Source: Arenicola marina
Taxonomy: Eukaryota; Annelida; Polychaeta; Arenicolidae
DNA: 64,000 bases
NCBI GenBank assembly: GCA_964019135.1
Contig: OZ025263.1
Coordinates: 21,119,123-21,183,122 of the forward strand
Direction: 5' to 3'
Below the pieces are notes generated by a model that saw only the letters and a list, made by a program, of their open reading frames with translations, had not been told where the DNA came from and made no database searches. Shown piece by piece: positions 4,311-42,921 of the stretch; position 1 is the stretch's first letter, and each line of letters starts with the position of its first letter. Both the position numbers and the translations under genes were made by a program.

Positions 4311-4560
4311 CGCTCATTTTCAAGTTTTACTGACATCTGTGCGATATTTAACTTTATCAGATTTCACATTTGGTAGCCTAGGCTATTGCGTTACATTATC
4401 AAATAACAGGAGAGGATGCGGACCAGAGACCAACCCGAAATGACATGAAGAAATGTTTTAATGTACAGTTAGCACGCTAAAATGCTGCATGTTACAAATG
4501 ATTCGTAGTTATCGTACGCCATAGTTAAATGAACTTATAGAGATGAAAAAGAGCGCTTGT

Positions 4561-5984: not shown

Positions 5985-6335
5985 CACTCTGCCTTCGACT
6001 CACTCCGCTAGGGCTCCATTATATCTCGGTTGTCTGTTGCCTACGTCTTCAATGCATTTTCACACTCGCTCGCCAGGGCGGCGCTGCGCAAATTGATAGG
6101 GAAAATGCGTCGCGCAGTTCTGTAACAATTATAACTTTTTCGAAAGGGTACAAGATGTTTTTTGCTGTAATTAATGCACAAAGCTCGTTCTTTTTATGTT
6201 TTATTCTTGAGAACTACATTGTTTCAAACAAATTACAGCTGATTTGACCGTTTTTCAAGGATTTTGAAATTTGCCCCCGACCGACAGCAGCGATGAAAGC
6301 TAGCTTGCGTAGCGCCACCGCGCGGGTAGCTTGGC
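5985..6335 (+). repeat. Dispersed repeat family A, copy 2
   Basis: Same landmarks as copy 1, but the ~65-base stretch from TTCTACAAATTAG to the start of the next shared block is absent. It is preceded by a very G-rich run at 5956-5982. Confidence 0.85.
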
Positions 6336-8134: not shown

Positions 8135-8220
8135 CCCGGCTAGCTCAGTCGCTAAAACAACGGATTTACGATCGAACGTTTGTACGTTCAACTCTCGATG
8201 CAGGCAAGGTTTTGATGTTA
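8135..8220 (+). repeat. tRNA-Lys-like segment, second copy
   Basis: Matches 2551-2640 with few changes and sits at the same place in the second large repeat. A box CGGCTAGCTCAGTCG is kept. Not a functional tRNA. Confidence 0.5.
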
Positions 8221-8307
8221 CTTGCATTTATTAATGGCAACAGCCCCTATTTGGTTCTCCCCTCGATCGTCACTTTGTAACAAACAAGCAATCTGTCAGT
8301 CTAAGAT

Positions 8308-8545
8308 TAATATGGGGGGGGGGGTACTCCCTCTGAGTCGCGAATCTCAAACATTTAAGGAGAGCAATATCGAATCTCTAAGATTAGGACATTTTAAAGC
8401 CGGGCGCGAAAAAAACGACTTGGTGATATCGCGAATATCGAGGAATTCGCAGACCGCTATAACGGATCGCAGTAAATAGGCAAAAGGGTCTTCGCGTTGA
8501 ACCAGGAATTGTACGGATAACGATCCCTAAAAATGGCAACAGCTG
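8308..8545 (+). repeat. Dispersed repeat family B, copy 2
   Basis: Begins with a G run and TACTCCCTCTGAGTCGCGAA; runs through GATATCGCGAATATCGAGGA to ATCCCTAAAAATGGCAAC. It is the most complete + strand copy and shows how far copy 1 is truncated. Confidence 0.85.
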
Positions 8546-9870
8546 ATCGCGAATCTCCAAGAATTCATGGATGTCAATCGCAGAGATCAGAAAAGGTAGC
8601 GCCCCCCCCCCCCCCCCGCCCCTGCCCCCAGATTAGTTCAAGCGGCCCCGGCGGCTCGCCTGCTTACATTTTATTGCAATAGTGACTTTAACAATCAGGA
8701 ATAGAATGTTCCTTTGCCAACACTGGAGATCCAAATGGTACCCACGAGAAGCCGCCTTTACATCAGCGTTGGCAGCCCTCCGATTATCGCCCTGCAATCT
8801 GTGTGTTTAACAAGGTACCCAAAACATGTGCTGTATGCGGACGGCGATTCCCTAACTTCATTTGCAAGTCATGAAATTAGATATTTACCTTTCGCGTCTG
8901 GATCAGTTACTCACAAAAGGTTCTACCAACGATAGAAACGAAGCAATAAGAAATTTCCCATGATGACTGCTCAATGAATGTATTTTAATTCCCCACCCCG
9001 TGCAGTTGACGTCTAATACGATACTATATCTGGAACGTCTTTCGACTTAGTGAAAGATCGAGCAGACTACCGCTGCGCATGGCATATCGTGATTAGTTGG
9101 TAAGCCATCTGCTATTAATAATCGGACTGACAAGCCTTCGGGTCAATGTCATATGGTCTGTCGGGCAGCAATCAGTTTTTGGGATGTACATTAATATGAT
9201 TAATAAAGATGCCACACCTGCGGTCAGCGTGACAGCGTGGCTGCCACTGTGATCGTAGCCTGGGACCCTGCTTCTACTCACGCATTCAGTTCAGCCTACT
9301 TCGTTGGGGCAACGGTACCCGCTTAATTAATGCGCTTGATATTAATCAATGCCAACCAAAGGACTTGGTAACGTCTGCCCAGTGAGGTCATGTGACCTCT
9401 TTTATGACACCGGGGGTCCAGTGAGTGCAGCGGCAAGAGTAAACAGACACGAATGGATATGTAGGAAGTATCATGAAATGGTTTACGGTGCTGGTTGTGG
9501 TAGTTTTGGCATGGGGAGTAGGGGGAGGGGGGTTGGGGATCTGCCGACGGCGTGTGTGCGTGTTGTGTAGGGGTGGGTGTGGGGGGGGGGGGGTAAGAGT
9601 GGGAGGGTGGGAGAGGGACGTTAATAATCTTTTTTGTGGCGGAAATGTGAGTATTCAGAACCCCCAAACCCCAGCGGCCATGGGCAGCAGTAAACGTCAC
9701 ATCATAAAGGATGGGGTGAGGGACAGAAGCAGTGTGACGCCTGAACTTCAATCCAGCCTCATGAGTGTTTGACAGGATGTTTTTTCTCATTGCCGTTAGC
9801 CCGATGTTACCCGATAAACACCAACCGAGTATCGATCGCGCACATTCGCACCCCTACCTCCTTTTCCTGT
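8546..9870. other. No gene recognised
   Basis: Unique-looking sequence with a poly-C run near 8600-8617 and GT/G-rich stretches at 9500-9610. Short ORFs show no similarity I recognise. Confidence 0.6.
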
Positions 9871-12800
9871 TCAATAGGGGGCAGGTAGCACTCACTCAAC
9901 ATCCCCTTCAACAGGGGGCAGGTAGCACTCACTCAACATCCCTTCAACAGGGGGCAGGTAGCACTCACTCAACATCCCCTTCAACAGGGGGCAGGTAGCA
10001 CTCACTCAACATCCCCTTCAACAGGGGGCAGGTAGCACTCACTCAACATCCCCTTCAATAGGGGGCAGGTAGCACTCACTCAACATCCCCTTCAACAGGG
10101 GGCAGGTAGCACTCACTCAACATCCCCTTCAATAGGGGGCAGGTAGCACTCACTCAACATCCCCTTCAACAGGGGGCAGGTAGCACTCACTCAACATCCC
10201 TTCAACAGGGGGCAGGTAGCACTCACTCAACATCCCTTCAAAAGGGGCAGGTAGCACTCACTCAACATCCCCTTCAACAGGGGGCAGGTAGCACTCACTC
10301 AACATCCCCTTCAACAGGGGGCAGGTAGCACTCACTCAACATCCCTTCAACAGGGGGCAGGTAGCACTCACTCAACATCCCCTTCAACAGGGGGCAGGTA
10401 GCACTCACTCAACATCCCCTTCAATAGGGGGCAGGTAGCACTCACTCAACATCCCCTTCAACAGGGGGCAGGTAGCACTCACTCAACATCCCTTCAACAG
10501 GGGGCAGGTAGCACTCACTCAACATCCCTTCAAAAGGGGCAGGTAGCACTCACTCAACATCCCCTTCAACAGGGGGCAGGTAGCACTCACTCAACATCCC
10601 CTTCAACAGGGGGCAGGTAGCACTCACTCAACATCCCCTTCAACAGGGGGCAGGTAGCACTCACTCAACATCCCTTCAACAGGGGGCAGGTAGCACTCAC
10701 TCAACATCCCCTTCAACAGGGGGCAGGTAGCACTCACTCAACATCCCCTTCAACAGGGGGCAGGTAGCACTCACTCAACATCCCCTTCAATAGGGGGCAG
10801 GTAGCACTCACTCAACATCCCCTTCAACAGGGGGCAGGTAGCACTCACTCAACATCCCCTTCAACAGGGGGCAGGTAGCACTCACTCAACATCCCCTTTA
10901 ACAGGGGGCAGGTAGCACTCACTCAACATCCCCTTCAACAGGGGGCAGGTAGCACTCACTCAACATCCCCTTCAACAGGGGGCAGGTAGCACTCACTCAA
11001 CATCCCCTTCAACATGGGGCAGGTAGCACTCACTCAACATCCCCTTCAACAGGGGGCAGGTAGCACTCACTCAACATCCCCTTCAACAGGGGGCAGGTAG
11101 CACTCACTCAACATCCCCTTCAACAGGGGGCAGGTAGCACTCACTCAACATCCCCTTCAACAGGGGGCAGGTAGCACTCACTCAACATCCCCTTCAACAG
11201 GGGGCAGGTAGCACTCACTCAACATCCCCTTTAACAGGGGGCAGGTAGCACTCACTCAACATCCCCTTCAACAGGGGGCAGGTAGCACTCACTCAACATC
11301 CCCTTCAACAGGGGGCAGGTAGCACTCACTCAACATCCCCTTCAACAGGGGGCAGGTAGCACTCACTCAACATCCCCTTCAACAGGGGGCAGGTAGCACT
11401 CACTCAACATCCCCTTCAACAGGGGGCAGGTAGCACTCACTCAACATCCCCTTCAACAGGGGGCAGGTAGCACTCACTCAACATCCCCTTCAACAGGGGG
11501 CAGGTAGCACTCACTCAACATCCCCTTCAACATGGGGCAGGTAGCACTCACTCAACATCCCCTTCAACATGGGGCAGGTAGCTCTCACTCAACATCCCCT
11601 TCAACAGGGGGCAGGTAGCACTCACTCAACATCCCCTTCAACAGGGGGCAGGTAGCACTCACTCAACATCCCCTTCAACAGGGGGCAGGTAGCACTCACT
11701 CAACATCCCCTTCAACAGGGGGCAGGTAGCACTCACTCAACATCCCCTTCAATAGGGGGCAGGTAGCACTCACTCAACATCCCCTTCAACAGGGGCAGGT
11801 AGCACTCACTCAACATCCCCTTCAACAGGGGGCAGGTAGCACTCACTCAACATCCCCTTCAACAGGGGGCAGGTAGCACTCACTCAACATCCCCTTCAAC
11901 AGGGGGCAGGTAGCACTCACTCAACATCCCCTTCAACAGGGGGCAGGTAGCACTCACTCAACATCCCCTTCAACAGGGGGCAGGTAGCACTCACTCAACA
12001 TCCCCTTCAACAGGGGGCAGGTAGCACTCACTCAACATCCCCTTCAACATGGGGCAGGTAGCACTCACTCAACATCCCCTTCAACATGGGGCAGGTAGCT
12101 CTCACTCAACATCCCCTTCAACAGGGGGCAGGTAGCACTCACTCAACATCCCCTTCAACAGGGGGCAGGTAGCACTCACTCAACATCCCCTTCAACAGGG
12201 GGCAGGTAGCACTCACTCAACATCCCCTTCAACAGGGGGCAGGTAGCACTCACTCAACATCCCCTTTAACAGGGGGCAGGTAGCACTCACTCAACATCCC
12301 TTCAACAGGGGGCAGGTAGCACTCACTCAACATCCCCTTCAACAGGGGGCAGGTAGCACTCACTCAACATCCCCTTCAATAGGGGGCAGGTAGCACTCAC
12401 TCAACATCCCCTTCAACAGGGGCAGGTAGCACTCACTCAACATCCCCTTCAACAGGGGGCAGGTAGCACTCACTCAACATCCCCTTTAACAGGGGGCAGG
12501 TAGCACTCACTCAACATCCCCTTCAACATGGGGCAGGTAGCACTCACTCAACATCCCCTTCAACATGGGGCAGGTAGCACTCACTCAACATCCCCTTCAA
12601 CATGGGGCAGGTAGCACTCACTCAACATCCCCTTCAACAGGGGGCAGGTAGCACTCACTCAACATCCCCTTTAACATGGGGCAGGTAGCACTCACTCAAC
12701 ATCCCCTTCAACAGGGGGCAGGTAGCACTCACTCAACATCCCCTTCAAAATGGGGCAGGTAGCACTCACTCAACATCCCTTCAACAGGGGGCAGGTAGCA

Positions 12801-13000
12801 CTCACTCAACATCCCCTTCAACAGGGGGCAGGTAGCACTCACTCAACATCCCCTTCAACAGGGGGCAGGTATCACTCACTCAACATCCCCTTCAACAGGG
12901 GGCAGGTAGCACTCACTCAACATCCCCTTCAACAGGGGGCAGGTAGCACTCACTCAACATCCCCTTCAACAGGGGGCAGGTAGCACTCACTCAACATCCC
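9871..13000 (+). repeat. 37-bp minisatellite, about 85 units
   Basis: Unit core CAACAGGGGGCAGGTAGCAC followed by TCACTCAACATCCCCTT. Most units are 37 bp. Recurrent variants are a 36-bp form lacking one C, AATAGGGGG for AACAGGGGG, AACATGGGG, and TTTAACAGGG. Runs of the same variant next to each other (AACATGGGG near 12520-12610) point to local duplication of blocks of units. The 37-bp period is not a multiple of three and no long frame runs through. No protein is implied. Confidence 0.98.
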
Positions 13001-15235
13001 CAAACGAACACCCCCCACCCCCCCCCCCTCGCACTCGGCCCCCTCCGACCCTCACCCTTCTCCCGGTCCTTCCCACAGAAAGTAACATTCCCGGGTACAT
13101 CACCTGATCACCTATGTGCGTGAGACTCGGCACCGGGAAACCATAGCGACTTGGCCACCTGGCGCCCTTTTAACGAGATATGTGAATAAAATCCGTGCCC
13201 TCCTCCCATATGGCTGTTTCACATTGACGGTTAACACAGCGGTCCGTTGGGCCGGTCATTAACGCCACCCGGAGGGCGGTGTCCACTTACCACGGGAGTG
13301 CTTTAGCAAAAGAGAAGAATAAGAGTGGTTCTTTATGCCATCTTGCCGCCTTTTGCTAAAGATCGCAAATCCAAGAGGCCCTGTACCTACCAACACTTCT
13401 GTACTTTCCTTTAGAATCCGGGAATTGTGGGTTTGGTCGGCCAAGAGAGGCCGGGCGGGGCGGGGCGGGGCAGGGTAAGGGGGAGGGGGCAATCGCCAAC
13501 AGGACTTGGTAAGGGGTGGAGTGGGGGAGGCAAACGCCAACAGGACTATTTCATATTCTTTACGAGATATGTTGTCATGGTAACGACGCACCCCCCCCCC
13601 AGTTACCGTCACCATGGTATCGTGGGTCCCAACCTGCTCACTTTGAACGTGTCCAACCCCTTGCAACTATATCCACTGAAATACTAATGATTTTATTTGA
13701 GAGTGGAGACGAGGTGGGTGGATTGATACAGTTCGGGAATCGTTTCCAACGAATTACAATCCCTCCTTTCCAATATCCCTCAGGGGGCACTATTTTACCG
13801 ACATGCCGAATGACTCAAGGGGGAAACCATTAAGCACTAGTGTATAGCCACTAATGCAGTAGGTGGGTTCGGCATTGACATGAATCTCGGTGGCTAATGT
13901 AGGGCGGAGACTGTCGTACTTCATAGCAAAACATAAAGTACTCGCATGAGACTCTCAGATAAGGTGATCAAAAGTCCTAAAAAAGACTGTGAACTCTCCA
14001 GTGTTCCTTGAAACATGGTGCTCTTGCGCCCCAGGCTGCATCACGTGTCCTGGGGGGGGGGGGGGGTTGTTATCTCGAATGACAAACAACATCCCCTCCT
14101 TTAACGGCCGTTTAAAATGGCAACGTGTCCAGTATATTGTTTACTCCAGTCAAAATAAGATTGCCCTTTCCCGTGTCCATTACATTTCCCATTTAATTGT
14201 AATTTTATCGTTTGTTCCATTGTCTAGGTGCTGCATGCTGAAGGTTATTGGAATATCGCCGTCGATATTCTGTTGCAGATCTCAGCGGTGGGTAAATATA
14301 ATATATAAGAACACATGTGAGATCTGACTGACGAATGAATCAGACGCCTCGGGCTGGGTGTGGAGGTGAGAGGGGTAGAGGAGTGAGGGGGTGTGGGGCG
14401 GTTTTGTCAAGCGTCAATACTGGCTTTACTAATGCTCTAATTAAGTACTACTGTAACAATGAAAAAATTCCATTAAAATTTCACAGCGGTTTTTAAAAGG
14501 TTGAATGGGACGCACCCTACCCACTCTACCGTTTCACGACGCTAACCACCGCTGCCCCCCCCCCCCTCCCAAAGCCCCGGCGCTCCACCCCCACCCCCGC
14601 CCCCGCCCCGCGGCGCTCCCCCATCAACCCCCTTCGCCACCTTCCCCAACGAATCGCCAGGAACAGTAGCCCAGCAGCGAAACCATCATGCCGTACCGGG
14701 TTGGGATCTTAGGATGTGCCCTGCCATGCTTGTGAGGCGTGGCCCGATAAACCCGCTGATCCCTCCTTGATCCCTCTTGTTGCCCTAATTAAGCAGTCGG
14801 TTGTGTTAATTAATACCCAATTAACGAGCTGTATTTATGCTCATCCAATTGTGTTTTCGACCGGAAAATCTGTAATTAATGCGCAGCCGTCGTTTGTCAG
14901 CGTAAACACCGGTACAAGTAAGTCGGTTATTGTTCTGTTAATAACAATGAAATTATTAATAATAATGCTCAATAATAATGCAAAAAAATGACATATACAT
15001 CTGTGCAACAGGGAAAGGCCACAGTTTCACATAATGTCCGTACTTCATATGCAGGTTCGTGCGTTTCTGTTTTTGACCTGGTTTAGCTGCTTTCACCCAG
15101 GCAGGCCGTGTGGGCTATACGAGATTATTCATATTAAAAGAAAAAGTATGCATTTGCAATGATTTATGTGCTAGATAAGCTGATCATAATCTGACAGCTC
15201 AAAGAAATTCCTTTCATAGAACTTGTTTGCGTTGC
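13001..15235. other. No gene recognised; G/C-rich patches
   Basis: Contains C runs at 13012-13028, 13590 and 14548-14570, and a G-rich stretch at 13445-13530 in which a GCCAACAGGACT phrase is repeated. A CTCF-like core is at 13154-13165 on the minus strand. AT-rich sequence follows from 14760. ORFs are short and unconvincing. Confidence 0.6.
13154..13165 (-). promoter_or_regulatory. CTCF-like core motif (candidate)
   Basis: Minus strand GCGCCAGGTGGC fits 10 of 12 positions of CCASYAGRKGGC. Motif match only; binding is not shown. Confidence 0.25.
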
Positions 15236-15345
15236 ATGGACATGAAATCTTTATCCTGCGACGACACAGACATGACCACAGCGGGGCTCGAAACATCGAC
15301 CCACGTGCCGTTAGGCTCTCATGTGACCAGAGCACTCTTGGTTGT
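15236..15345 (-). mobile_element. SINE fragment (same family as 33037-33268)
   Basis: On the minus strand it reads from the tRNA-like head (AGAGTGCTCTGGTCACATGAG) through the B-box region (ATGTTTCGAGCCCCGCTGTG) to GCAGGATAAAGATTTCATG. It lacks the right half and tail found in the copies at 33037-33268 and 63708-63960. Confidence 0.8.
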
Positions 15346-16300
15346 CTTTCCCACATATAATTCTTGTAGCGTAAAGTAATGCATTAATAATTAAAATAAT
15401 GCCCTTAGCCACCTAACTATAACTTACTCCTTCCACAGGAGTATGAACTGTTGTGCTACGTAAATATCAGTGTCATTTACCATTCTTCGTCAGCGGCAGC
15501 ATACAGACTAGAGCTCTACTATCCACCGCATGCCAGCTAGGATGGCAAAGCTCATGGCATAAAATATATCATGACATCTCAACAGATGGACAGATGGTGG
15601 AAACATGATTCAATGCCATTCCGTCTCATTTAATATGATAGCTCGCTCCAAAATAAATATATACATAAATAAATTAGCAATCATCACCATTAAACTCCTA
15701 AGCATCTCACTTGTTTTATGCCCATAACGCTGGGTTTGGTTGCACTGATTTATGTCTAATGGATATGTGGCTTCCCCGAAAGGAACCGAGGTGTGTTCCA
15801 TGTTCACATGGTTCTGACGTGGGCGACTGATAACCTCCACATACACCAAGGGTCATCCACAGACAGCTGGGCCTTGATGAAAAACAACTGCGGCTTTGAT
15901 TACTTCACGAAAATGAGGATAAGCCACATTCTTGAAAGGTCATGCGAAAGGGGAAGTTTAAACATCCGGGGATTCACCATATTTTGCCTTCACCAAGTGT
16001 TTGTGCCACACTTTCTCTATCATACTGCCGCATGTGGAGTACTTATCTGAAGATATTTATTCTGTAACGGTGATGATTCATGTTTTGTTTTCCATATGCG
16101 TGAAATTCGGTGAATGCTAGATGTTGTAAAAACGAAAGAAACATTGATCCCTTGCGCAGGCAGCATGACAGGGGACCGCTAGTGGGACCGCTAGCACAGT
16201 GGCGCCACCATGGGAATCCGAAAAACGTCCTTTCTCGAGTTCAACATTTCTTTATCGAAGCCTCTATTTGATCTTTTATCAATCTTTGTTTTTGTATCGG
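15346..16300. other. No gene recognised
   Basis: AT-rich unique sequence. Short ORFs on both strands have no recognisable similarity. Confidence 0.6.
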
Positions 16301-16475
16301 GGAGCCTCCTTGCTCAGTTGGTAAGACAATTGAACTGCAGTTCAACAAGTCGTGGGTTCGAACCCTGGTACCTCCATCGGGCACTAGATTCACCAACCTC
16401 CCTTCATCGTCCTGGACGGTTTATGGACCGAATTCGGCACATAAAGCGGCTTAAAGCAGCAGTATTAATTTGTTG
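16301..16475 (+). mobile_element. tRNA-derived SINE or tRNA pseudogene
   Basis: TTGCTCAGTTGGTAAGACAA is a good A box/D arm and GGGTTCGAACCC a perfect B-box core. The palindrome TTGAACTGCAGTTCAA sits where the anticodon arm should be, giving a six-base loop containing GCA in place of a normal seven-base loop, and the acceptor stem does not close fully. The sequence then runs on for about 100 bp to ATAAAGCGGCTTAAAGCAGC, as in a SINE body. I therefore do not call a functional tRNA-Cys. Confidence 0.6.
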
Positions 16476-16756
16476 CTATTATATCTATTCTCCTGTGTGA
16501 CACTGTTTTACGCTGTCTAACATGTAGCCGTGGTTGACTCAGCCAACCGCTCTATATATCCGTAGGCGACTTACTCTATTCGGAGTAAGTCATACTTACT
16601 TTTGGGTATGGGCAACTAATCTATCCAGCAGTCATGGGTAAGTTACCGTTCGGAGCAATCTACTTACCATATTACTTTTATACGAACTTGCTGATCGTAT
16701 CTTAATAAACAACCCTGTCTGTTGCGTATCACATCTATCTTAACTAACAGACTGTA

Positions 16757-16980
16757 TCTAAACATGTAGCGTGGCTAGGTTACTTACCCTATCTACTATG
16801 TACCCGTGGCTAGGTCACTTACCCTATCTACTATGTAGCCATGGCTAGGTCACTTACCCTATCTACTATGTAGCCGTGGCTAGGTCACTTACCCTGTCCA
16901 CTGTGTAGCCATGGCTAGGTCACTTACCCTATCCACTATGTAGTCGCGGCTAAGTTACTTACCCTATCAACTATATAGTG
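16757..16980 (-). repeat. 35-bp splice-donor minisatellite, distal part (6-7 units)
   Basis: Units carry TAGATAGGGTAAGTGACC on the minus strand, the same as in the main array at 18513-19151. The two parts are separated by a LINE fragment and lie in the inferred intron 1 of the receptor-like gene whose first exon is at 19152-19499. Diverged relatives may extend left to about 16510. Confidence 0.95.
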
Positions 16981-16984
16981 CTCA

Positions 16985-18512
16985 CGTTTCATCTTTGGAG
17001 GTAATAATTCTCGGCAGCCAGTCTGCTCTTAAAGACTTAATATATGCTTCAATACCTGTCATATTGATACAGCCTTGTTCAACCGAAGCAATCACGAGCG
17101 AACGTCTCAGTCTATCTCTTTTTCCCCGTTTGAAATTGTAAAAAAGTTTAGTCAGCTGTTTCATCGCTTCAGCTGAGATTAGCGCAAAACTAGCGATAAA
17201 CGTAATTTTTTTTTTAAATTTAAAAGGCCAGTGTTTTTAAAATTGTTATTTTCCCGAAAAGCGTCAGGTTTCGTTTTTTCCAACTAGCTAGCATGCTTTC
17301 TATGGATTTAACTTGTTTTCCCCATTTCATGCAGTAACATTCGTCCTTGTTGTGTCCGATATACACACCAAGAGCTCGTATAGGCTCGTTTGTGAAGCAT
17401 ATATCGTATTAAAACCGTAAGTCTGATCAATGTTTAGCACAGGTCATGCGAACTTTGAGAACAACTGGATTTCCTGAATGGCTTCATTGATAGAATCCAT
17501 ATCGTTAAGAAACAGCTTTGTATCATCTGCATATTGCGAGATTTTAATTACTCTGATGTTCCTTTTTGTCTTAATTGTGTAACCAGTTATGTTAACGTTT
17601 TGTCTTATTTGATTAGCCATTATTTCAGCCACTAAAATGAAGAGCCACGCCGATAACGGGCACCCTTGTTTGACACCTCGACCGAGAGAGACCTCTGCTG
17701 ATAGATGACCGTTGTTTTTAATACATGCATACGGTTCTGTATAGAGCGTTTTTACAAACTGAATAAATTTATCCCCGAAATTAATAACATTTATGCTTTC
17801 AAATAAAAAGTTCCACTTCACAGTGTCAAATGCTTTCTTAAAATCTAGAAATAGCAAAGCGACAGGGTAATTTTTTTGGTTAGCGTGCGTGATCACATCT
17901 TTAACCAGACGTATATTTTGACCAATAAAGCGTTTTTTTAATAAAACCCGTTTGATCATTATTGATGATCCTGCTTATTGGTTCTCGCATTCTATTAGTG
18001 AGACAGAAGGTAAGAATCTTATAATCAACGTTACACAAGCTGATTGGTCTATAATTTGCTACATCCTCCCAACTACCGTTTTTGAATATAAGTGACACTA
18101 TTGATTATCTTTGAGATCTTGATAATATACCGTCTTCTATACATTCGTTTAAAACATCTACGAGAAAAGGTATAATATGTGTCCCTAGACACTTGTAAAA
18201 TTCCGCCGTTAGCCCATCATTGCCTGGGGATTTGTTTTTCTTTAGATTGTTATTGCATCCAGACATTCTGCTTTGGAAATTTCTGTGCTCAGATTAATTC
18301 GTCATCGTTAACTTTCTTCTTTATATTAGTTTTGCTCAAGTAGCGTATAACTTCATGATTATCTTTTGCTTTTGAAGTATACAGATTTTCGTAAAAGCGG
18401 CGCGATTCTGCAAGTATTTCCATATCTGACTGTACCCTGCCATCTGCGGTTTGGAGGTTGTTTATAACATTAAGGGTTTGTCTTCACTCTTCAACTTTCA
18501 AGAAATACGAGG
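16985..18512 (-). pseudogene. Tx1/L1-type LINE fragment: reverse transcriptase and C-terminal part
   Basis: Minus-strand reading, broken by stops and frameshifts, gives the RT blocks in order: KSPGNDGLTAEFYK (about 18190-18235), NYRPISLCNVDYKIL (18050), NDQTGFIKK, LFLDFKKAFDTVKWNF (17830), GRGVKQGCPLSAWLF (17670), and the catalytic box QYADDTKLFL (17530). Downstream come RALGVYIGHNKDECYCMKWG (about 17310-17380) and the C-terminal GKRDRLRRSLVIASVEQG (17100), ending in a stop next to the minisatellite. This order and spelling match the L1/Tx1 group. The endonuclease and N-terminus are absent. Both edges meet minisatellite units, and the fragment is in the same orientation as the receptor-like gene. 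Confidence 0.93.
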
Positions 18513-19151
18513 TATACTTACCCTGTCTACTATGTAGCCATGGCTAGGTCACTTACCCTATCTACTATGTAGCCATGGCTAGGTCACTTACCCTATCTAC
18601 TATGTAGCCATGGCTAGGTCACTTACCCTATCTACTATGTAGCCGTGGCTAGGTCACTTACCCTATCTACTATGTTTTCGTGGCCAGTTTACTTACCATA
18701 TCTACTATGTTTTCGTGGCTACGCTACTTACCCTATGTACTATGTAGCCGTGGCTAGGTCACTTACCCTATCTACTATGTTTTCGTGGCTTGGTTACTTA
18801 CCATATCTACTATGTTTTCGTGGCTACGTTACTTACCCTATCTACTATGTAGCCGTGGCTAGGTCACTTACCCTATCTACTATGTTTTCGTGGCTATGTT
18901 ACTTACCATATCTACTATGTTTTCGTGGCTACGCTACTTACCCTATGTACTATGTAGCCGTGGCTAGGTCACTTACCCTATCTACTATGTTTTCGTGGCT
19001 TGGTTACTTACCATATCTACTATGTTTTCGTGGCTACGTTACTTATCCTATGTACTATGTAGCCGTGGCTAGGTCACTTACCCTGTCTACTATGTTTTCG
19101 TGGCTTGGTTACTTACCATATCTACTATGTTTTCGTGGCTACGTTACTTAC
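18513..19151 (-). repeat. 35-bp minisatellite built from a splice donor, main part (about 19 units)
   Basis: On the minus strand each unit includes CATAGTAGATAGGGTAAGTG or a variant (GATATGGTAAGTAAC). Each therefore has a near-consensus 5' splice site, GGGTAAGT or ATGGTAAGT. The first unit is the real exon 1/intron 1 boundary: the exon ends ...TACATAGTAGATAGG and the intron begins GTAAGTAACG. Two unit types alternate (TAGCCGTGG and TTTTCGTGG on the plus strand), giving a higher-order pattern. The plus-strand frame 18645-19181 is a 105-bp (3 x 35) reading artefact. Confidence 0.95.
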
Positions 19152-19499
19152 CCTATCTACTATGTAGCCGTGAGTGACTAATCGATACCCGACCAAAATA
19201 TCAGAGTCGTTGTTAACAATCTCCGAGAGAAAGTCGAATCCTCGGCTCAAGTCAGTCCTCCCGAAATCCGAGTATATACTCATGACATGTAACTCCTTCC
19301 GGTCGTCGTTGGGGGTGGGGGCAGCCGTCGTGGTGAGTGGATCCTGATCGCCCCACTGATCCCGACTGGACGTGTCGGGAGCCAGGGTCTCGAGTCCTGG
19401 TGATCCGGAACAAGCCACGCCTCCGATGGCCACAGCTGTACATAAGCATGCTGACACCAGGAGCCGCGTGGCTCCCGATGGCCGTCTGTTTAGATCCAT
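19152..19499 (-). CDS. First coding exon of a GABA-B-like class C receptor gene (copy 1)
   Basis: ATG at 19499 opens a 116-codon exon; the frame can be extended to 19514 only with a non-ATG start. Residues 1-12 are basic, 13-29 hydrophobic (LLVSACLCTAVAIGGVA), which fits a signal peptide. Residues about 35-68 are a Pro/Thr/Asp-rich linker. From residue about 70 the sequence LHVMSIYSDFG ... FDFLSEIVNNDSDILVGYRL follows the first strand and helix of periplasmic-binding-type (ANF receptor) domains; the N-x-x-DIL-x-x-Y pattern recalls GABA-B receptors. It ends in phase 0 at Asp-Arg, followed by the strong donor GTAAGT (19146-19151). The paralogous exon at 42592-42921 ends at the matching place, supporting this boundary. 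The intron opens directly into the donor-site minisatellite. Known for the family: extracellular ligand binding. Inferred here: an expressed receptor or a first-exon remnant; later exons were not found. Confidence 0.6.
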
Positions 19500-21174: not shown

Positions 21175-22835
21175 GTAGGGGGAGGGGGGTGAGGAGGGGG
21201 AGGAGGTGGAGGACGATGGTTGGACAAGGTGGGGGGGGGAGGAGGTGGAGGACGGGGGTTGGACAAGAAGGGGGTGAGGAGGTGGAGGACCGGGTTGGGC
21301 AAGGAGGGGGGGAGGAGGTGGAGGACGGGGGTTGGACAAGAAGGGGGTGAGGAGGTGGAGGACGGGGTTGGGCAAGGAGGGGGGGATGAGGTGGAGGACG
21401 GGGGTTGGACAAGGAGGGGGGGGAGGAGGTGAAGGACGGGGGTTGGACAAAGAGGGGGTGAGGAGGTGGAGGACGGGGGTTGGACAAGGAGGGGGTGAGG
21501 AGGTGGAGGACGGGGGTTGGACAAGGAGGGGGTGAGGAGGTGGAGGACGGGGGTTGGACAAGGAGGGGGTGAGGAGGTGGAGGACGGGGTTGGGCAAGGA
21601 GGGTGGGGGAGGAGGTGCAGGACGGGGTTGGGCAAGGAGAGGGGGAGGAGGTGGAGGACGGGGGTTGGATAAGGATGAGAGAGAGGAGGGGGGGGGGACG
21701 GGGGTTGGACAAGTAGAAGGGGGAGGAGGTGTAGGAAGGGGGTTGGATAAGGATGAGAGAGAGGATGTGGAGGACGGGGGTTGGACAAAGAGAAGGGGGG
21801 GAGGTGGAGGACGGGGGTTGGATAAGGAGGGGGTGAGGAGGTGGAGGAAGGGGGTTGGATAAGGAGGAGGGGGAGGAGGTGTAGGAAGGGGGTTGGATAA
21901 GGATGAGAAAGAGGATGTGGAGGACGGGGGTTGTACGAGGAGGAGGGGGAGGAGGTGGATGACGGGGGTTGGACAAGGAGGAGGGGGAGAAGGTGGAGGA
22001 CGGGGGTTGGACAAGGAGGAGGGGGAGGAGGTGGAGGACGGGGGTTGGACAAGGAGAAGGGGGAGGAGGTGGAGGACGGGGGTTGGATAAGGATGAGAGA
22101 GAGGAGGGGGGGGGGACGGGGGTTGGACAAGAAGAAGGGGGAGGAGGTGTAGGAAGGGGGTTGGATAAGGATGAGAGAGAGGATGTGGAGGACGGGGGTT
22201 GGACAAGGAGGAGGGGGGAGGTGGAGGACGGGGGTTGGATAAGGAGGGGGTGAGGAGGTGGAGGACGGGGTTGGATAAGGAGGAGGGGGAGGAGGTGTAG
22301 GAAGGGGGTTGGATAAGGATGAGAAAGAGGATGTGGAGGACGGGGGTTGGACAAGGAGGAGGGGGAGGAGGTGGATGACGGGGGTTGGATAAGGAGGAGG
22401 GGGTGGAGGTGGAGGACGGGGGTTGGACAAGGAGGAGGGGGAGGAGGTGGAGGACGGGGGTTGGACAAGGAGGAGGGGGAGGAGGTGGATGACGGGGGTT
22501 GGACAAGGAGGAGGGGGAGGAGGTGGATGACGGGGGTTGGACAAGGAGGAGGGGGAGGAGGTGGATGACGGGGGTTGGACAAGGAGGAGGGGGAGGAGGT
22601 GGATGACGGGGGTTGTACAAGGAGGAGGGGGAGGAGGTGGATGACGGGGGTTGGACAAGGAGGAGGGGGAGGAGGTGGATGACGGGGGTTGGACAAGGAG
22701 GAGGGGCAGGAGGTGGAGGACGGGGGTTGGGCAAAGTGGAGGGGGAGGAGATGGAGGACGAGGGTTGGACAAGGAGGAAGGGGAGGAGGTGGAGGGCGGG
22801 GTTGGACAAGGAGGAAGGGGAGGAGGTTCTAGGTT
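21175..22835 (+). repeat. 38-bp G-rich minisatellite, about 43 units
   Basis: Unit carries GGAGGTGGAGGACGGGGGTT and GGACAAGGAGGAGGGGGA; the period is mostly 38 bp. Variants include GGATAAGGATGAGAGAGAGG. The G-rich plus strand has many closely spaced runs of three or more G. The minus strand gives Pro/Ser-rich frames of over 500 residues in all three phases, showing absence of stop codons and not coding. Confidence 0.97.
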
Positions 22836-23201
22836 GGAGAGTTGGACAGGATGGCCATCGTGTGCTGTTTTACCGGCTACGAGTCCCCCCTAACCCTGCT
22901 GTGCTCTGCGGGTGGCGTGGTGTTAGCTGGTGCAGGACACCATGGCCGCTCCGACAGTCACTCACTTCCCCTGCAGCCTTTCAGGAAAGCTATATATATA
23001 TACCGCTTGAGACGCAACTTGAGACACAATGGCCTTGGGATATCACCTGATCCACCCATTCTCCAGGGGGCGCCGTCTTTACGATATCCGACCGTATTTA
23101 GTTCGGTGTCTTTCGCAATATATAAATACTTTACATTGTGAAGGTGATCATCAGACGCCAAATGACTAAGTCATAGAAATAGGATAAATAGTTTTAGAAA
23201 T
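22836..23201. other. No gene recognised
   Basis: Short unique segment with a TATATATATA run near 22992. Confidence 0.6.
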
Positions 23202-23331
23202 CACACAGCGGTGTGTCCTTTCTCCGCTAGAGGGTGGGCACACAGCGGTGTGTCCTTTCTCCGCTAGAGGGTGTCCTTTCTCCGCTAGAGGGTGGGCACA
23301 CAGCGGTGTGTCCTTTCTCCGCTAGAGGGCG
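23202..23331 (+). repeat. Short minisatellite with four CCGCTAGAGGG motifs
   Basis: About 37-bp units, CACACAGCGGTGTGTCCTTT then CTCCGCTAGAGGGTGGG, partly truncated. CACAC/GTGTG forms a small inverted repeat. The four CCGCTAGAGGG cores start at 23224, 23261, 23282 and 23319 and resemble the CTCF core. Confidence 0.9.
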
Positions 23332-23659
23332 GGGAATACCTTTTACGATCCCCGCGATTAATATCCATCGATTAGTATTTTTATTTTGTTTATTTAAGCT
23401 TTATTTCTTTAAAGGGGTTGCAATACGTACACAAGTACACATAAATGTTCATCTGTAACTTTGCGTTGGCGAAAGGCTAGTCCAGAATTCATAATCTAAT
23501 ATAGATATTGACAAAAAATACGAATAATCGAACCGTTTGCTCGCGATAATGTACTGCTGAATTTTTAATAATAATATGAATAATATACAATTTGGCTTAA
23601 ATCGCGGCTACCGTACATGAGGACATTGGTCACGATTTGCAGTTCTTTCCTTAATGCGG

Positions 23660-25385
23660 GATTTATGTTAATGGGGGGGGGGGATGGTAGTTTCATCAGA
23701 TTCACATGACGAGAGCAATAACTCGACATAATTGTTTTCTAATATCCGTGAAATTGGGGCGTAGGAGCAAAGAGTGCATTTCCTCTTCAATTTTGCCATG
23801 CAAAGCGGACAGGTGCTTTGTTCAATAAAACCATATATTTTCCTATGAGCATTTAGCCTACTCAAACCCATCCTCATACGTGCGGGAACAAAAGCGCCCT
23901 CATTAGGCTGGATTTCATGAAGGTTGTTTCGCCTGTAGCGCTTGGTATCCTTCAGCTCACGTTTGAAAACCTTGATGGGTGAAGATGTTTTTTATTTCGG
24001 TTGATAAGGAGTTCCAATGGTACGGAGCATGCCAGAAGAAGGATTGCTTATCAAACGTTTTACGAGTGCTTGGGATAGCTAGGTTGTGGGAATTTCGAAG
24101 TGGATATCGTGAAATATGACCTACAAATGGAGCCAGGAGAGTTTTGATGTTGGTGGGAGCAGGATCGTGAGTTATCTTATACAGATGACAGAGGGCAAAA
24201 TACCGTCGCCGCAGGGCAAGGGGCTCGACACTATTTTCGCGTAACAACTTGTCATGTGAAGTATGTCTTTACTTGTCAGCATTTGTCACACTCAGCAAAG
24301 ACTGGCGCTGAACCTGTTCGATCGCACCAGTCTGCTCCAAAGTAAGGTTACCACAATAGACACTGCTGGAATACTCTAAACGCGGTCGAATGTACGATTT
24401 ATAAATTAGCAGCTGGACTCTCCTGTTGAGGGTGCGAGAAACCTTCCTTAACATATTAACAGATCTAGATGCATTTGTGGTTACCTCCCGTACGTGCTTA
24501 TCCCAAGACATTGTTTCAGTCAACCATAAACCCAGATGACAGTGCTCTCATGTACGTTCAATAACAGTCATTAAAGGTGGTTCTGGTTTATGTAACTTCT
24601 TACTAACTACCATAAACTGTGTCTCCTTAGCACTAAATTGAATACGCCATTGGGCAGCCCAATTTCCAATCTGTTGCAGGTCGTTATTGACTGCTTGAAC
24701 GTCTTCCGGGGTTTCAAGGGTCTTTAACAATGTGCTGTCGTCTGCGTAAAGAAAGGAGTCAGATCGAAGGTCATCCACAAGGTCATTGGCATATACCAGG
24801 TACGGGAGGGGTCCCAGGACGGATCCTTGAGGCACTCCTGCGTCTAACGGACACCAGTTAGAATGTTGCTCATTAATTACAACTCACTGGTGACGCCCGG
24901 GAAGGTAATTTTCAGTCCATTTTAATAAATTTCCCGATATACCGTAGCTTTCTAGTTTGTACGTTCCATAACTTTTGCAATACATGGCAGGAGGGAGATC
25001 AGGCGGTAATTTTCTTTAAGGTTTCGAGTGCCCATTTTTATGTACCGGTACGATATTAGCGTATTTCCATGAGGTAGGAAAGTTTCCACTTTTCATTGAC
25101 ATATGGAAAAGTTCAGAGAATGGGTTAGCCTTAACCTGTACAGTTGCTTTTACCATTCGGTTACTGATGCCGTGAAGGTCGCTTGCCTTATTAACAAGGA
25201 GCTGTTTAAGGATGCGATATACGTCAACAGGCGTAGACATGGCGTTAATCATAGGGTGCGACGTGTTGTACTGAACAGGAGGCAGTGCAAAGCCCGGTGG
25301 AGGGTCACCGAGAGCAGAGCTTGCAACAAAAAACTCATTCTCTACAATTGCCTTGGACTAAGAAGTAGCGTAAGCTATGTTATTT
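23660..25385 (-). pseudogene. CR1/Jockey-like LINE, frameshifted and 5'-truncated
   Basis: Minus-strand fragments in different frames give, in order: ENEFFVASSALGDPPPGF (about 25330), KASDLHGISNRMVKATVQV, ANIVPVHKNGHSKP (25030), PQGSVLGPLPYLVYANDL (24820), the catalytic FLYADDSTLLKTL (24740), then WDKHVREVTTNASRSVNMLR, IYKSYIRPRLEYSSSVYC, RRRYFALCHLYKI (24210), FWHAPYHWNSL (24030) and a C-terminal MGLSRLNAHRKIYGFIEQS followed by CPLC (23830). This is the standard block order of CR1/Jockey-type LINEs. The endonuclease is missing and several frameshifts make it inactive. Its upstream edge abuts family B at 25386. Confidence 0.92.
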
Positions 25386-25590
25386 CTGGTTCAACGCGAA
25401 GACCCTTTTCCCATTTACCGCTATCGCTTATAGCAATCTGCGAATTCCTCGATATTCGCGATATCCCATTCAATGTGGGTTTCTTCGCGCCCAGTCTTGA
25501 GCAGTCCTCATCTTGGAGGTTCGATAATATTATCCCTAATTCTTGGGGATTCGTGATTCAAAGGGGATACCCCCCCACCCCCCGGCTGGT
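25386..25590 (-). repeat. Dispersed repeat family B, copy 3 (inverted)
   Basis: Plus strand reads GGTTCAACGCGAAGACCCTT ... CGAATTCCTCGATATTCGCG ... GATTCGTGATTCAAAGGGGA then a C run, the reverse complement of the family. As in copy 1, it is cut just after GCGTTGAACCAG and followed immediately by LINE sequence. Confidence 0.85.
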
Positions 25591-26044
25591 ACGGGTCTTC
25601 ACACAGAGGGGCCGTATTTTAACCTATGTGTCTTGCAAAACCCTTGGAGATTTACCTTATACCGGTAAGTGTGATAGGAAGTTAAGTTTCCACGGGCACA
25701 TAAGTGGCAGACATGCATACTTTTTGTATCTATCACTTTTTCGAGATACAAAACAAGCGCGATCTGGTGGGGGAAAATGACAACAATTTCGGATGAAAAC
25801 TGCGATTTGACGCATTACCAATAAGCCTTAATTGAGCCTTGGTACAGACAGAGACGTGCCCGCACTGTCCCAGTGACGATGTGCCCCGTACCTCTGTAGC
25901 GGGGACGCATTAACGTGGTGGGAATGCCTTTATGGAATGGAAATAGGTAAACTTGCTATTTTTCGCACTCCCTTTGAGAAGGCAAATTGCCATTGGCTAG
26001 AATAATGGTGGCCGTTTGTGATTGGCTGAGAATGGGGGAGTGGG

Positions 26045-26255
26045 GGGTGGGGGGGGGCAAAGGGTACTTCCGTTCCTCGGGAATGGGGTTTTCATTTCAC
26101 CGTAAACTGGGATTGAGGCAAATACTTCTTCGTGAACTGAGAATGGGGTATTAACCGACCGTTGTGATAAAGGATTTTCATTAGTCGTGAACTGGGAATT
26201 CTAATACTAAGTAACCGTAAGTCAGGCAATCGCCAATTTATATCATGTATAAGGC
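26045..26255 (-). repeat. Dispersed repeat family C, copy 1 (inverted)
   Basis: Reverse complement reads AAATTGGCGATTGCCTGA ... GGTCGGTTAATACCCCATTC ... CAGTTCACGAAGAAGTA ... CGGTGAAATGAAAACCCCAT ... then a C run. Copies in the other orientation are at 32041-32345 and 42240-42545. Confidence 0.8.
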
Positions 26256-26280
26256 GGCAAATGCGCCTGTTGTGAGGCTG

Positions 26281-26465
26281 GTCTGGTGGCATTCTCTGCC
26301 ACCGACTCACTCCGCTAGGGCTCCATTACATCTCTGTTGTCGCCTACTGCCTCAAGGTATTCGCACTCTTGTTCGCCAGGGCGGCGCTGCGCAAATTGAT
26401 AGGACAAATGCGCCGCGCATTTCTACAAATTAGTACCGGGGACCCAGCCTAAGCCTAATAACACA
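26281..26465 (+). repeat. Dispersed repeat family A, copy 4 (left half)
   Basis: ATTCTCTGCCACCGACTCAC through GCCAGGGCGGCGCTGCGCAA to AGCCTAAGCCTAATAACAC, then unrelated sequence. More diverged than the other copies. Confidence 0.85.
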
Positions 26466-27394
26466 CCCCTTTCAAGAATTTCTGCACACGCCCCTGTGAT
26501 GGGACTCGATTGACTTAAAATCCCTCGATAATATTCGGTAATAATTATCCACACTATCACAGTAATTATTCTTCGTTTCTTTGTTTGTAACATTTACCTT
26601 GCAATCCCGCTTGCTGGAAACTTACGGTCATCGCCACAAATAAGTTATTGCAATTTTTTCTTGCGAAGTAAGTTACGATCATCACAGCCAATGTTAGAAA
26701 GGTGTTTCACGCTTTTATGAAGGAAAACCTGCTGCTTTAAACTCTTCTATATCAGATCTGCCCCCGGTCGTAAAAAAATCATTGGATCCCCCGGTCGCAA
26801 TTTCGTTCAGCCCCCTCCCCCATCCCGGTCGCAGGTTTGGACCACCCGCCATTTTCAAGCTCCTGGATCCCCCTGCGCAGTGATCAATGTGTGTGGTGAT
26901 CCCGGCGCCCACCCCCCATATCATGTCATAGGACAGGATATGTCAGACCCGTGCTCGCAGAAATCCCATATCGCTCTCCAACCAATGCCCTATCCATACC
27001 GGCTTGCGTGTGACACAATGTCTTCGGCCGGTAAATGACCTCCGTATCATGCTTTGGCTATTCAATATCAGGCACGACATGTAATCATGAGGGTCGATGT
27101 ATCGCCGGATATCGCATGTGTTAGGGGATGACTTCATCTATGCCTGTCGATCATGTCTGTTCAGTGCACTAGTTGTGGATATAGTGGGCGTCAATGATGG
27201 TAAATAGTGAAGCATTTGTCGCGTGTGACCGATAGAAGGTCGGCACATAAGGCATATACCGTAGACAAATGGCCCATTATCGCCCGAACTTAAGTTTCTG
27301 ATGTGTGTAATGGGAGAGCGGGAGGGATTGCCTATCCCACTAACTACTACCGGTGATCCTAAGAGACGGATTTAATGGAGGATAAAGGACTGTC
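26466..27394. other. No gene recognised
   Basis: Unique-looking sequence. A phrase of the type CCCCGGTCGCA/TTTCGTT recurs at 26758-26850. No coding similarity. Confidence 0.6.
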
Positions 27395-30300
27395 ATCGGG
27401 ATGGGGTGCAGGGGGCATGGGAGGGGGTGCGGTGCAGGGGGCAGGCTGGAGGGGGGGTGTGGTGCCGGGCAGGTTGGGGGTGTGTGGTGAAGGGGGCAGG
27501 CTGGGGTGTGTGGTGAAGGGGGCAGGCTTGGGGTGTGGTGCAGGGGGCAGTTTGGGTGTGTGTGGTGCAGGGGGCAGGCTGGGGTGTGTGGTGAAGGGGG
27601 CAGGCTGGGGTGTGTGGTGAAGGGGGCAGGCTTGGGGTGTGGTGCAGGGGGCAGTTTGGGTGTGTGTGGTGCAGGGGGCAGGCTGGGGTGTGTGTGCGGT
27701 GCAGGGGGCAGGCTGGGGTGTGTGCGCGGTGCAGGGGGAAGGCTGGGGAGGGGGCTGGTGAAGGGGACAGGCTGGGGTGTGTGGTGAAGGGGGCAGGCTG
27801 GGGTGTGTGTGGAGCAGGGGGAAGGCTGGGGAGGGGGCTGGTGAAGGGGACAGGCTGGGGTGTGTGTGCGGTGCAGGGGGAAGGCTGGGGAGGGGGCTGG
27901 TGAAGGGGACAGGCTGGGGTGTGTGTGCGGTGCAGGGGGAAGGCTGGGGAGGGGGCTGGTGAAGGGGACAGGCTGGGGTGTGTGTGCGGTGCAGGGGGAA
28001 GGCTCGGGAGGGGGCTGGTGAGGAATGGAATGTTGGTGTTTTAGGCCACTTTTGTGCACATACAGGCTAAATTGGGCCAAGGAACCTCCCGAGACGATGA
28101 AGGATGAAGGAATGAAACACGCCCCAGATTAGGTGCCCGAGCCCGGATTCGAACCCAGGACCTATTGATCTGCGGTCTAGTGCGCTAACCACTACACCAG
28201 GGAGGCCCCCGGGGGGCTGGTGAAGGGGACAGGCTGGGGTGTGTGGTGCAGGGGGAAGGCTGGGGAGGGGGCTGGTGAAGGGGACAGGCTGGGGTGTGTG
28301 TGGGGTGCAGGGGGAAGGCTTGGGAGGGGGCTGGTGAAGGGGACAGGCTGGGGTGTGTGTGCGGTGCAGGGGGAAGGCTCGGGAGGGGGCTGGTGAAGGG
28401 GACAGGCTGGGGTGTGTGTGGGGTGCAGGGGGAAGGCTCGGGAGGGGGCTGGTGAAGGGGTCAGGCTGGGGTGTGTGGTGCAGGGGGAAGGCTGGGGAGG
28501 GGGCTGGTGAAGGGGACAGGCTGGGGTGTGTGTGCGGTGCAGGGGGAAGGCTTGGGAGGGGGCTGGTGAAGGGGACAGGCTGGGGTGTGTGTGTGTGGTG
28601 AAGGGGGTAATCTTGGGAATGGTGTGGTGAAGGGGGCAGGCTGGGGGTGTGTGGTGCAAGGGGCAGGTTGGGTGTGTGTGGTGCAGGAGACAGGCTGGGG
28701 GGTGTGGTGAAGGGGGCAGGCTGGGGTGTGTGTGCGGTGCAGGGGGAAGGCTGGGGAGGGGGCTGGTGAAGGAGACAGGCTGGGGTGTGTGGTGCAGGGG
28801 GCAGGTTGGGTTTGTGTGGTGCAGGGGGCAGGCTGGGGTGTGTGGTGCAGGGGGCAGGCTGGGGGTGTGTGGTGCAGGGGGCGGGCTGGGGGTGTGTGGT
28901 GAAATGGGTAGGCTTGGGAATGGTGTGGTGAAGGGGGCAGGCTGGGGGTGTGTGGTGCAGGAGACAGACTGGGGGGTGTGGTGAAAGGGGCAGGCTGGGG
29001 TGTGTGTGCGGTGCAGGGGGAAGGCTGGGGAGGGGGCTGGTGAAGGGGACAGGCTGGGGTGTGTGGTGCAGGAGGCAGATTGGGTGTGTGTGGTGCAGGG
29101 GGCAGGTCGGGGTGTGTGGTGCAGGGGGCAGGCTGAGGGTGTGTGGTGCAGGGGGCGGGCTGGGGGTGTGTGGTGCAAGGAGCAGGCTGAGGGTGTGGTG
29201 CAGGGGGCAGGCTGGGGAGGGGTGTGGTGCAGGGGGAAGGCTGTGCAGGGGCAGGCTGGGGGGAGACAGTGTGGTGCAGGGGGAAGGCTGGGGTGTGTGT
29301 GTGGTGCAGGGGGAAGGCTGGGGTGTGTGTGTGGTGCAGGGGGAAGGCTGGGGTGTGTGTGTGGTGCAGGGGGAAGGCTGGGGTGTGTGTGTGGTGCAGG
29401 GGGCAGGCTGGGGTGTGTGTGTGGTGCAGGGGGAAGGCTGGGGAGGGGGCTGGTGAAGGGGACAGGCTGGGGTGTGTGGTGCAGGAGGCAGATTGGGTGT
29501 GTGTGGTGCAGGGGGCAGGTCGGGGTGTGTGGTGCAGGGGGCAGGCTGAGGGTGTGTGGTGCAGGGGGCGGGCTGGGGGTGTGTGGTGCAAGGGGCAGGC
29601 TGAGGGTGTGGCGCAGGGGGCAGGCTGGGGGTGTGTGGTGCAGGGGGTAGGCTGGGGGTGTGTGGTGCAGGGGGCAAGCTGAAGGGTGTGGTGCAGGGGA
29701 CAGGCTGGGTGTGTGTGGTGCAGAGGGCAGGCTGGGGGGGGGGGGTGGTGTGGTGCAGGGGGAAGGCTGGGTGTGTGTGTGTGGTGCAGGGGGCAGGCTG
29801 GTGGGTGTGTTGCAGGGGGCAGGCTGGGGAGGGGTGTGGTGCAGGGTGAAGGCTGTGCAGGGGCAGGTTGGGGGGAGACAGTGTGGTGCAGGGGGATAGC
29901 TGGGGTGTGTGTGTGGTGCAGGGGGAAGGCTGGGGGGTGTGTGTGGTGCAGGGGGAAGGCTGGGGTGTGTGTGTGGTGCAGAGGGAAGGCTGGGGTGTGT
30001 GTGTGGTGCAGGGGGCAGGCTGGGGTTTGTGTGTGGTGCAGGGGGAAGGCTGGGGTGTGTGTGTGGTGCAGGGGGAAGGCTGGGGTGTGTGTGTGGTGCA
30101 GGGAGAAGGCTGGGGTGTGTGTGTGGGGCAGGGGGAAGGCTTTGGTGTGTGTGTGGTGCAGGGGGAAGGCTGGGGTGTGTGTGTGGTGCAGGGGGAAGGC
30201 TGGGGTGTGTGTGTGGTGCAGGGGGAAGGCTGGAGTGTGGGTGTGGTGCAGGGGGAAGGCTGGGGTGTGTGTGTGGTGCAGGGGGAAGGCTGGGGTGTGT

Positions 30301-31440: not shown

Positions 31441-32040
31441 GGTCAGGGGGAGAGGGTTTGCAGTCGGGATGGGGTGTGATGCAGGGAGCGGGCTGGCGGG
31501 GGAGTCGAATGTATGAGGGGGATCGGAAGGGGGAGGGCCGGGGAGGGGGGAGGGGCGAGGCGGAGAGGGTTTGCAGTCAGGATGGGCTGTGGTGCAGATG
31601 GCAGTCCGGGGAGAGACGGAAGCGGAAGTAGACACATTACACGTTTGACAGCCAGCCTTTGGCGCAGAACACCCTTGAGATGTCCAGAAAGAATAACGAG
31701 TTCCTGTTTACATGCACAAGGACCACCTGAACGCGAACATCCGCTGGAGTTCACCAGAACTCCAATCATAAGCCCCCTGCCCCCTCTCGCCCTCCCCCCC
31801 TCCCCCTCGCCATGTACTTACCGCGAGGCCGGTTTGTTATGTGGCTATCTAAGCCCCGCTGACTTTGCTCTTTCCGCCATCCAGTGGTGCATAGATTGAG
31901 GCAGATATGGTTTGTATCTTGATCTAAATGTAACTTGACGAAGACTTCAAGGAGGATCTTTTGCTCTTGCATTTGCCTTTTTACCTTTACACTCGAATAA
32001 CATGCAGCATAGGCTATTCATCTTTCAGTTCATTCGTATA
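31441..32040. other. No gene recognised
   Basis: The left 200 bp is G-rich low complexity in which GGAGAGGGTTTGCAGTC occurs twice (near 31448 and 31563). The rest is unique sequence without a convincing ORF. Confidence 0.6.
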
Positions 32041-33023: not shown

Positions 33024-33036
33024 CAAAACCTATTTG

Positions 33037-33268: not shown

Positions 33269-33281
33269 CAAAACCTATTTG

Positions 33282-38030: not shown

Positions 38031-38035
38031 GAATC

Positions 38036-42545: not shown

Positions 42546-42591
42546 CCTACTATGGCGCTAGAGAAAACGTCTTCACGGTCCGATTACTAAC

Positions 42592-42921
42592 CGGGTCGAT
42601 GCTGTAGTGATGCGGGACCATCTTGTAGTCGGCCAGGAGATCCGTGCGATTGTCAATCAGCTCCGTCATGAAGTCCACCAGAAGGTCAAAGTGCAGTTCT
42701 CCGAAAGGTCCCGAGTAGATGTTAATGATGTTCAAATCCTGCGGCCAGTCCGGATCACGGGAGCCTCCTGGAGCCGCGGACGGTGGCTGCGAGGGTGGGG
42801 TCGTCAAGGGGTCTGATCCAGGCCCCTCGCTGGTGACGCCATTTCCGATAGCGGGAGATTGTGTCGCCCATAGCAACAGCGCCACCAGGATGGAGACTTC
42901 CGGCCTGCTCCGGATCATCAT
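42592..42921 (-). CDS. First coding exon of a GABA-B-like class C receptor gene (copy 2)
   Basis: ATG at 42921 (a second ATG follows at once) opens a 110-codon exon. Residues 9-20 (VSILVALLLWAT) form a signal-peptide core, with likely cleavage near residue 25. Residues about 30-60 are Pro/Ser/Gly-rich; DPLTT is shared with copy 1. From residue about 63 the sequence LNIINIYSGPFG ... VDFMTELIDNRTDLLADYKM fits the start of the periplasmic-binding-type ligand domain of GABA-B-like receptors. The last 38 residues match copy 1 at 13 positions, with many conservative changes and no gap. The exon ends in phase 0 at Asp-Pro before the donor GTTAGT (42586-42591). Family C lies just inside the intron (42240-42545). 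Later exons were not found. The alternative is another ANF-receptor-type protein. Confidence 0.62.

Follow-up and report, generated by a model that had tools for sequence, protein, structure and literature searches.

The minisatellites of amphioxus known as 'mirages' are said to owe their name to the paper on Adh3. Apart from that gene they have been described in the globin genes BflGb6 and BflGb9, in PGBD5 and in troponin C, according to two reports (PMC3087553, PMC3902484). These reports bear out the original prediction for the DNA studied here, which had suggested with some hesitation that exon–intron-boundary minisatellites were known from amphioxus. The stretch analysed (the window) comprises 64,000 nucleotides of contig OZ025263.1 (positions 21,119,123 to 21,183,122, forward strand) and carries a 35-bp minisatellite at the 3′ end of a predicted first coding exon (exon A) of a GABA-B-type receptor gene. 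This array is a further case of the known mirage structure, and the observations as a whole are very probably best explained by a splice-junction minisatellite of the mirage kind whose seeding has recurred in the genome.

The 35-bp array at exon A

Exon A is an open frame on the minus strand (Table 1) that ends at 19152 and is followed directly by GTAAGT, where the original prediction had placed the exon end and the start of a series of 35-bp repeats. Each repeat unit combines the 21-nt tail of exon A with ∼14 nt from the beginning of the intron. The proximal block contains 19 donor-like sites at an exact spacing of 35 bp (19151 to 18521, minus strand), and six more are present in a distal block past a retroelement fragment (16962 to 16787, minus strand). 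Tandem Repeats Finder (TRF) places the proximal block at 18510–19165 with a period of 35 and 18.7 copies or, in an alternative call with a higher score, at 18515–19172 as a 105-bp repeat with 6.3 copies; it places the distal block at 16764–16978 with 6.2 copies. The units adjacent to the exon are ordered A-B-C five times, forming a 105-bp higher-order repeat, and the distal units are simple; this higher-order structure suggests turnover. The prediction that every unit keeps a 5′ splice site stands for 24 of the 25 units (including six of six in the distal block), in which GTAAGT is intact, and fails for the unit at 19046, which reads ATAAGT.

The tandem array of splice-junction units is real. 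The minus strand of the window contains 35 GTAAGT hexamers, 24 of which lie within 16700–19200, and the 20-mer core of the unit (ACATAGTAGATAGGGTAAGT) is found, with at most one mismatch, at 22 places in the 867,369,267-base genome, all of them within the array at exon A, whereas its reversed control is found at none. This clustering, together with the confinement of the core to the array, argues that the array did not arise by chance. The confinement also bears on the possibility that the exon end derives from a unit of a captured satellite that was already dispersed in the genome. The exon tail does lie inside a homogenised block, unit 1 being identical to unit 10 across the full 35 bp, but a unit core that occurs nowhere else and two related exons (B and C, see below) that have the homologous codon end and no array make such a capture highly improbable.

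The two blocks are separated by an interruption (∼16980–18514) that contains the reverse-transcriptase fragment listed in Table 1, and past it the array picks up again at the identical phase of the 35-bp unit. Fragments of reverse transcriptases are also present at 22900–27400 (minus strand). We propose that the last 21 nt of the first coding exon and ∼14 nt of intron were tandemly duplicated, with the extra copies falling within the intron, and that unequal exchange or slippage would then have amplified them to ∼25 units, with an additional 105-bp higher-order amplification beside the exon. The retroelement would have split the array afterwards.

The exon boundary and the receptor gene

Exon A aligns along its length with a second exon in the window, exon B (blastp E value of 1.9e-11), and is also related to a third, exon C, beyond the window. 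The three share a homologous last codon and a phase-0 donor, with an array at A only, and exon 2, which begins CTACAG/GAG in phase 0, occurs once in the 324 kb surveyed. Because the three first exons share their codon end and exon 2 follows in a matching phase, the predicted boundary of exon A is well supported by homology, and the first unit of the array can be taken as the real boundary, as had been proposed. Exon B had been assigned to a paralogous gene, an assignment we do not retain: since one set of downstream receptor exons was detected in the 324 kb, exon B is likelier to be an alternative first exon, and one receptor gene probably uses A, B and C as alternative first coding exons, which would give it alternative N-termini; the three would then not belong to paralogous genes. 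The N-terminus of exon A appears by eye to resemble a signal peptide. When the genome was searched with A or with B, the matches at E values of up to 1 were limited to these two exons and did not include C, so that such searches are not sensitive to all relatives.

Exons A and B matched no Pfam family and nothing in the protein collection searched, and they gave only two PDB matches, to unrelated proteins (E values of 0.99 and 1.6). A Pfam scan of minus-strand regions 1–9851, 13000–19151, 22900–27400 and 31450–42592 in three frames each yielded reverse transcriptases as the sole matches above the cut-off. The two exons alone failed to identify the receptor; its identity was drawn from the flanking DNA. 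Searches with human GABA-B receptor sequences locate an ordered series of receptor exons on the minus strand 9–38 kb past the low end of the window. With a profile built from these sequences, seven open reading frames pass the inclusion threshold (the best domain has an E value of 1.4e-23); they too are ordered and on the minus strand, the exons of the ligand-binding lobe preceding those of the class C seven-helix part. The score of similarity to human GBR1 was reached by 13 of 1000 shuffles for exon A and by none of 1000 for exon B. Homology to these sequences supports a GABA-B-type (class C) receptor as the host gene, in agreement with the receptor-like gene first suggested. Exon 11 of this receptor (window coordinate −36875, outside the window, in L006) likely has a GC donor, CAAAG/GCGAGT.

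If exon A were a dead or unused first exon, the array would be harmless and would pose no splice choice. Exon A is a predicted exon, two other first exons are present and the receptor similarity of A is weaker than that of B, all of which would fit a dead exon. Its 116 open codons, Met start, intact donor and full-length alignment with B speak against decay, as do junction copies at four more donors of the gene, located in exons common to all forms, and we regard a dead exon A as rather unlikely.

Junction copies and array edges at other exons

At other exon ends, the 40 nt around the midpoint formed by the junction were compared with the sequence within 1.5 kb, and a copy was required to have at least 28 matches; shuffled local sequence gave 0 positives in 400. 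Such copies are present at five of the 14 donors of the receptor gene and at none of its 11 acceptors, with shared exonic tails of 21 (exon A), 17 (exon 2), 16 (exon 7), 85 (exon 8) and 32 nt (exon 12). In this gene copies cover 36% of the positions 0–20 nt past donors versus 5% of those before acceptors. Two tandem SDR-like genes, covered over three exons each, have junction copies at one of four acceptors: in the second gene copy, the intron end and the head of exon 3 are repeated ten times upstream in 70-bp steps. A donor-only rule (5/14 donors versus 0/11 acceptors, Fisher P = 0.046) was dropped on account of this acceptor. Two further loci were taken, for their exon density, from 77 myosin-head matches. 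At one of them (L034, C7:32806801-32814600, minus strand), an unconventional-looking myosin, junction copies lie downstream of two of the seven donors, as seven copies at ∼37 bp and ten copies at 32 bp, and none of the 15 placeable acceptors of the two myosin loci is positive. Pooled over the four loci, junction copies are present at 7 of the 36 donors and, among the 30 acceptors that could be placed, at 1, and the units of the junction arrays range from 32 to 149 bp. Junction arrays therefore recur beyond exon A. Some limits apply to these counts: the exon-3 donors of the SDR-like genes were tested 1 nt away from the likely junction, some myosin donors at both loci were picked with low scores by a weight table, two donors of the second myosin locus (L033) with a single copy at 838 bp, a neighbouring duplicated exon, were scored negative, and one of 31 acceptors, in the myosin loci, was unplaceable and excluded.

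These counts have to be read against the abundance of tandem repeats: the share that TRF assigns to them is 42.9% over the 324 kb and 30.2% within the window. Very large arrays in the window are located at 9870–13001, 21191–22827, 27398–31418, 45664–50489 and 54631–57186; separately, window regions 1–2900 and ∼5650–8530 form a long direct duplication with translated pieces that are ∼85–100% identical. In such a minisatellite-rich genome arrays could start at exon ends by chance, and those whose copies fall in introns would survive selection, with no promoting role for donors. To set the counts against this background, arrays were placed at random, placements that damage exons were rejected, and an array was counted if its upstream edge fell no more than 90 nt before the 3′ end of an exon; the two-copy repeat of exon 8, which is part of the junction test, was excluded. 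Six donor-edge arrays are observed at the four loci compared with 1.22 expected (P = 0.0008), or five versus 1.23 without the array of the window (P = 0.005), and three versus 0.3 in the receptor gene without that array (P = 0.004). With the exon tail limited to 45 nt, none of 4000 simulations reaches six. Acceptor edges at the four loci show no excess (one versus 1.18, P = 0.70). Arrays thus begin at donors in excess in this sample, which is small and was partly assembled by following the first case.

We propose, tentatively and with somewhat less than even confidence, that minisatellites in this genome preferentially arise at exon 3′ ends or are anchored there, that donors act as their seeding points and that the exon-proximal donor stays in use. 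Several points weigh against the overall explanation, this proposal included. Array coverage alone gives no enrichment at donors, and local copies also accompany 30% of gene positions drawn at random and 37% of intron positions 60–400 nt from a boundary. The excess of donor edges is not significant outside the receptor gene (two versus 0.9, P = 0.23), and junction copies are absent from the six donors of the SDR-like genes and from the nine donors of L033. The myosin and SDR-like boundaries are predicted from homology and sequence, as is the exon structure of the receptor gene, and the receptor model lacks one exon between exons 6 and 7, and the joined exons do not read through. An origin from array density alone, with coverage and the non-receptor loci on its side and the simulated donor edges opposed to it, is possible, although we lean against it; it contests only the seeding by donors and is compatible with the mirage label for the array at exon A.

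Table 1. Positions of the array, exons and related features (window coordinates unless a locus is named)
Feature	Position	Strand	Description
Proximal array	18515..19172	-	35-bp unit, 19 donors; unit 1 contains the 21-nt tail of exon A
Distal array block	16764..16978	-	6 units; from TRF and donor listing
Retroelement fragment	17456..17914	-	Pfam RVT_1 (63 bits; cut-off, 29.6)
Exon A, predicted first coding exon	19152..19499	-	116 codons, Met start at 19499; open frame; putative start of GABA-B-type receptor ligand-binding lobe
Exon A 5′ splice site	19146..19151	-	AGG/GTAAGT, phase 0; homology-supported
Exon B, related first coding exon	42592..42921	-	110 codons, Met start; probable alternative first exon
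Exon B donor	42586..42591	-	CCG/GTTAGT, phase 0; no junction copies
Exon C, related first coding exon	75415-75131, beyond the window (L008:1131-1415)	-	Met start; donor CCT/GTGAGT, phase 0
SDR-like acceptor array	L027:319-1020	+	Counterpart in tandem gene copy, L025:3114 (+), has no copies

Decoy donors and comparison with known systems

Reading into the intron had been predicted to meet a stop after eight codons, and each of the 18 decoys in the proximal block does lead, eight additional codons on, to one and the same TAG (codon 125). The accompanying expectation that use of another donor would shift the frame holds for 12 of these 18 decoys; the remaining six (donors 4, 7, 10, 13, 16 and 19) would lengthen the exon by 105 nt or a multiple of it, leaving phase 0 unchanged. 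Any decoy of the proximal block, if used, would thus add an in-frame TAG. The donor of exon A itself is no better than many of the decoys, AGG/GTAAGTAA recurring in other units. By predicted local RNA folding it ranks first of 19 when nine nucleotides have to be unpaired (0.28) and is not first for six unpaired nucleotides (0.30 versus up to 0.71 elsewhere). By analogy with the mirage genes of amphioxus, for which reverse-transcription polymerase chain reaction (RT-PCR) suggests regular splicing (PMC3087553), the exon-proximal donor is presumably the one in use, and with the exon intact the array would be tolerated.

The ladder of decoys might instead be functional, either through use of downstream donors in some tissues, with poison splicing to a shortened or unstable transcript as the outcome, or as a regulatory sponge for the U1 small nuclear ribonucleoprotein. 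The shared TAG would suit a function, and 64 of the 65 decoys over four arrays retain intact signal dinucleotides. In the array at exon A, none of the 35 windows varies less than that of the donor (rank p = 0.029; a binomial test on allele counts gives 0.04). The corresponding rank p values of the other three arrays are 0.039, 0.125 and 0.47 on minority counts (Fisher over the four arrays, 0.014) but 0.41, 0.23 and 0.63 on allele counts, and because the units of an array are not independent, the signal of selection on the decoys is suggestive at best. Homogenisation within arrays accounts for the retention equally well and exons B and C have no ladder at all, so that a functional ladder appears improbable. 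Whether or not they have a function, up to 25 near-identical consecutive donors represent a natural experiment on site choice by the spliceosome, and exons with their last codons in a homogenising array can change by exchange with intronic copies.

The host is likely to be an annelid. The mitochondrial contig (15,942 bp) has the order nad3-nad2-cox1-cox2-atp8-cox3-nad6-cob-atp6, with genes named by eye, which is that of annelids; at COX1 positions judged by eye, ATA corresponds to Met, AAA to Lys and AGA to Ser, and no tRNA was predicted by ARAGORN in the mitochondrial sequence. The annelid-type order argues against amphioxus as the host, provided that this contig comes from the same animal.

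A literature search with thin coverage of subscription journals found, among the papers listed, no exon-boundary minisatellites reported in annelids, the nearest being earthworm cases (PMC12783039, PMC12130307). The earthworm metallothionein genes (PMC12783039) resemble the present locus in being annelid and in having large intronic minisatellites and exon copies outside the transcript; their units average ∼180 bp, and repeats of exon–intron junctions are not described in the part of that report at hand. Intron gain through tandem duplication of AG/GT (Rogers; Zhuo; Gao and Lynch; as cited in PMC3087553) likewise involves tandem copies of splice signals within a gene, but here the copies lie inside an existing intron beside an existing exon and no new intron is shown. 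The consecutive donors also offer a natural experiment on whether junction duplications feed intron gain.

The closest counterparts are the amphioxus mirages of the two reports. Both sets include donor and acceptor types, with the true boundary adjoining the exon; in both the repeats span the exon–intron boundary (here 21 exonic nucleotides and the intron start, the boundary being placed by homology); and many but not all units keep AG/GT in amphioxus, compared with GT in 24 of 25 units here. Normal splicing and length or somatic instability are reported for amphioxus, whereas the present array is seen in the sequence of one assembly. All cases seen in those reports are cephalochordate and the present host is probably an annelid, a difference that does not concern a defining structural feature, and here five donors of one gene are affected and the excess of donor edges could be tested. 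A structure reported only from amphioxus in the literature searched is thus found in what is probably a distant phylum and is dense enough there for statistics. If donors do seed arrays, many introns would start with a ladder of near-identical decoys, and mirages would be a general, independently evolved outcome of donors in minisatellite-rich genomes rather than an oddity of amphioxus.
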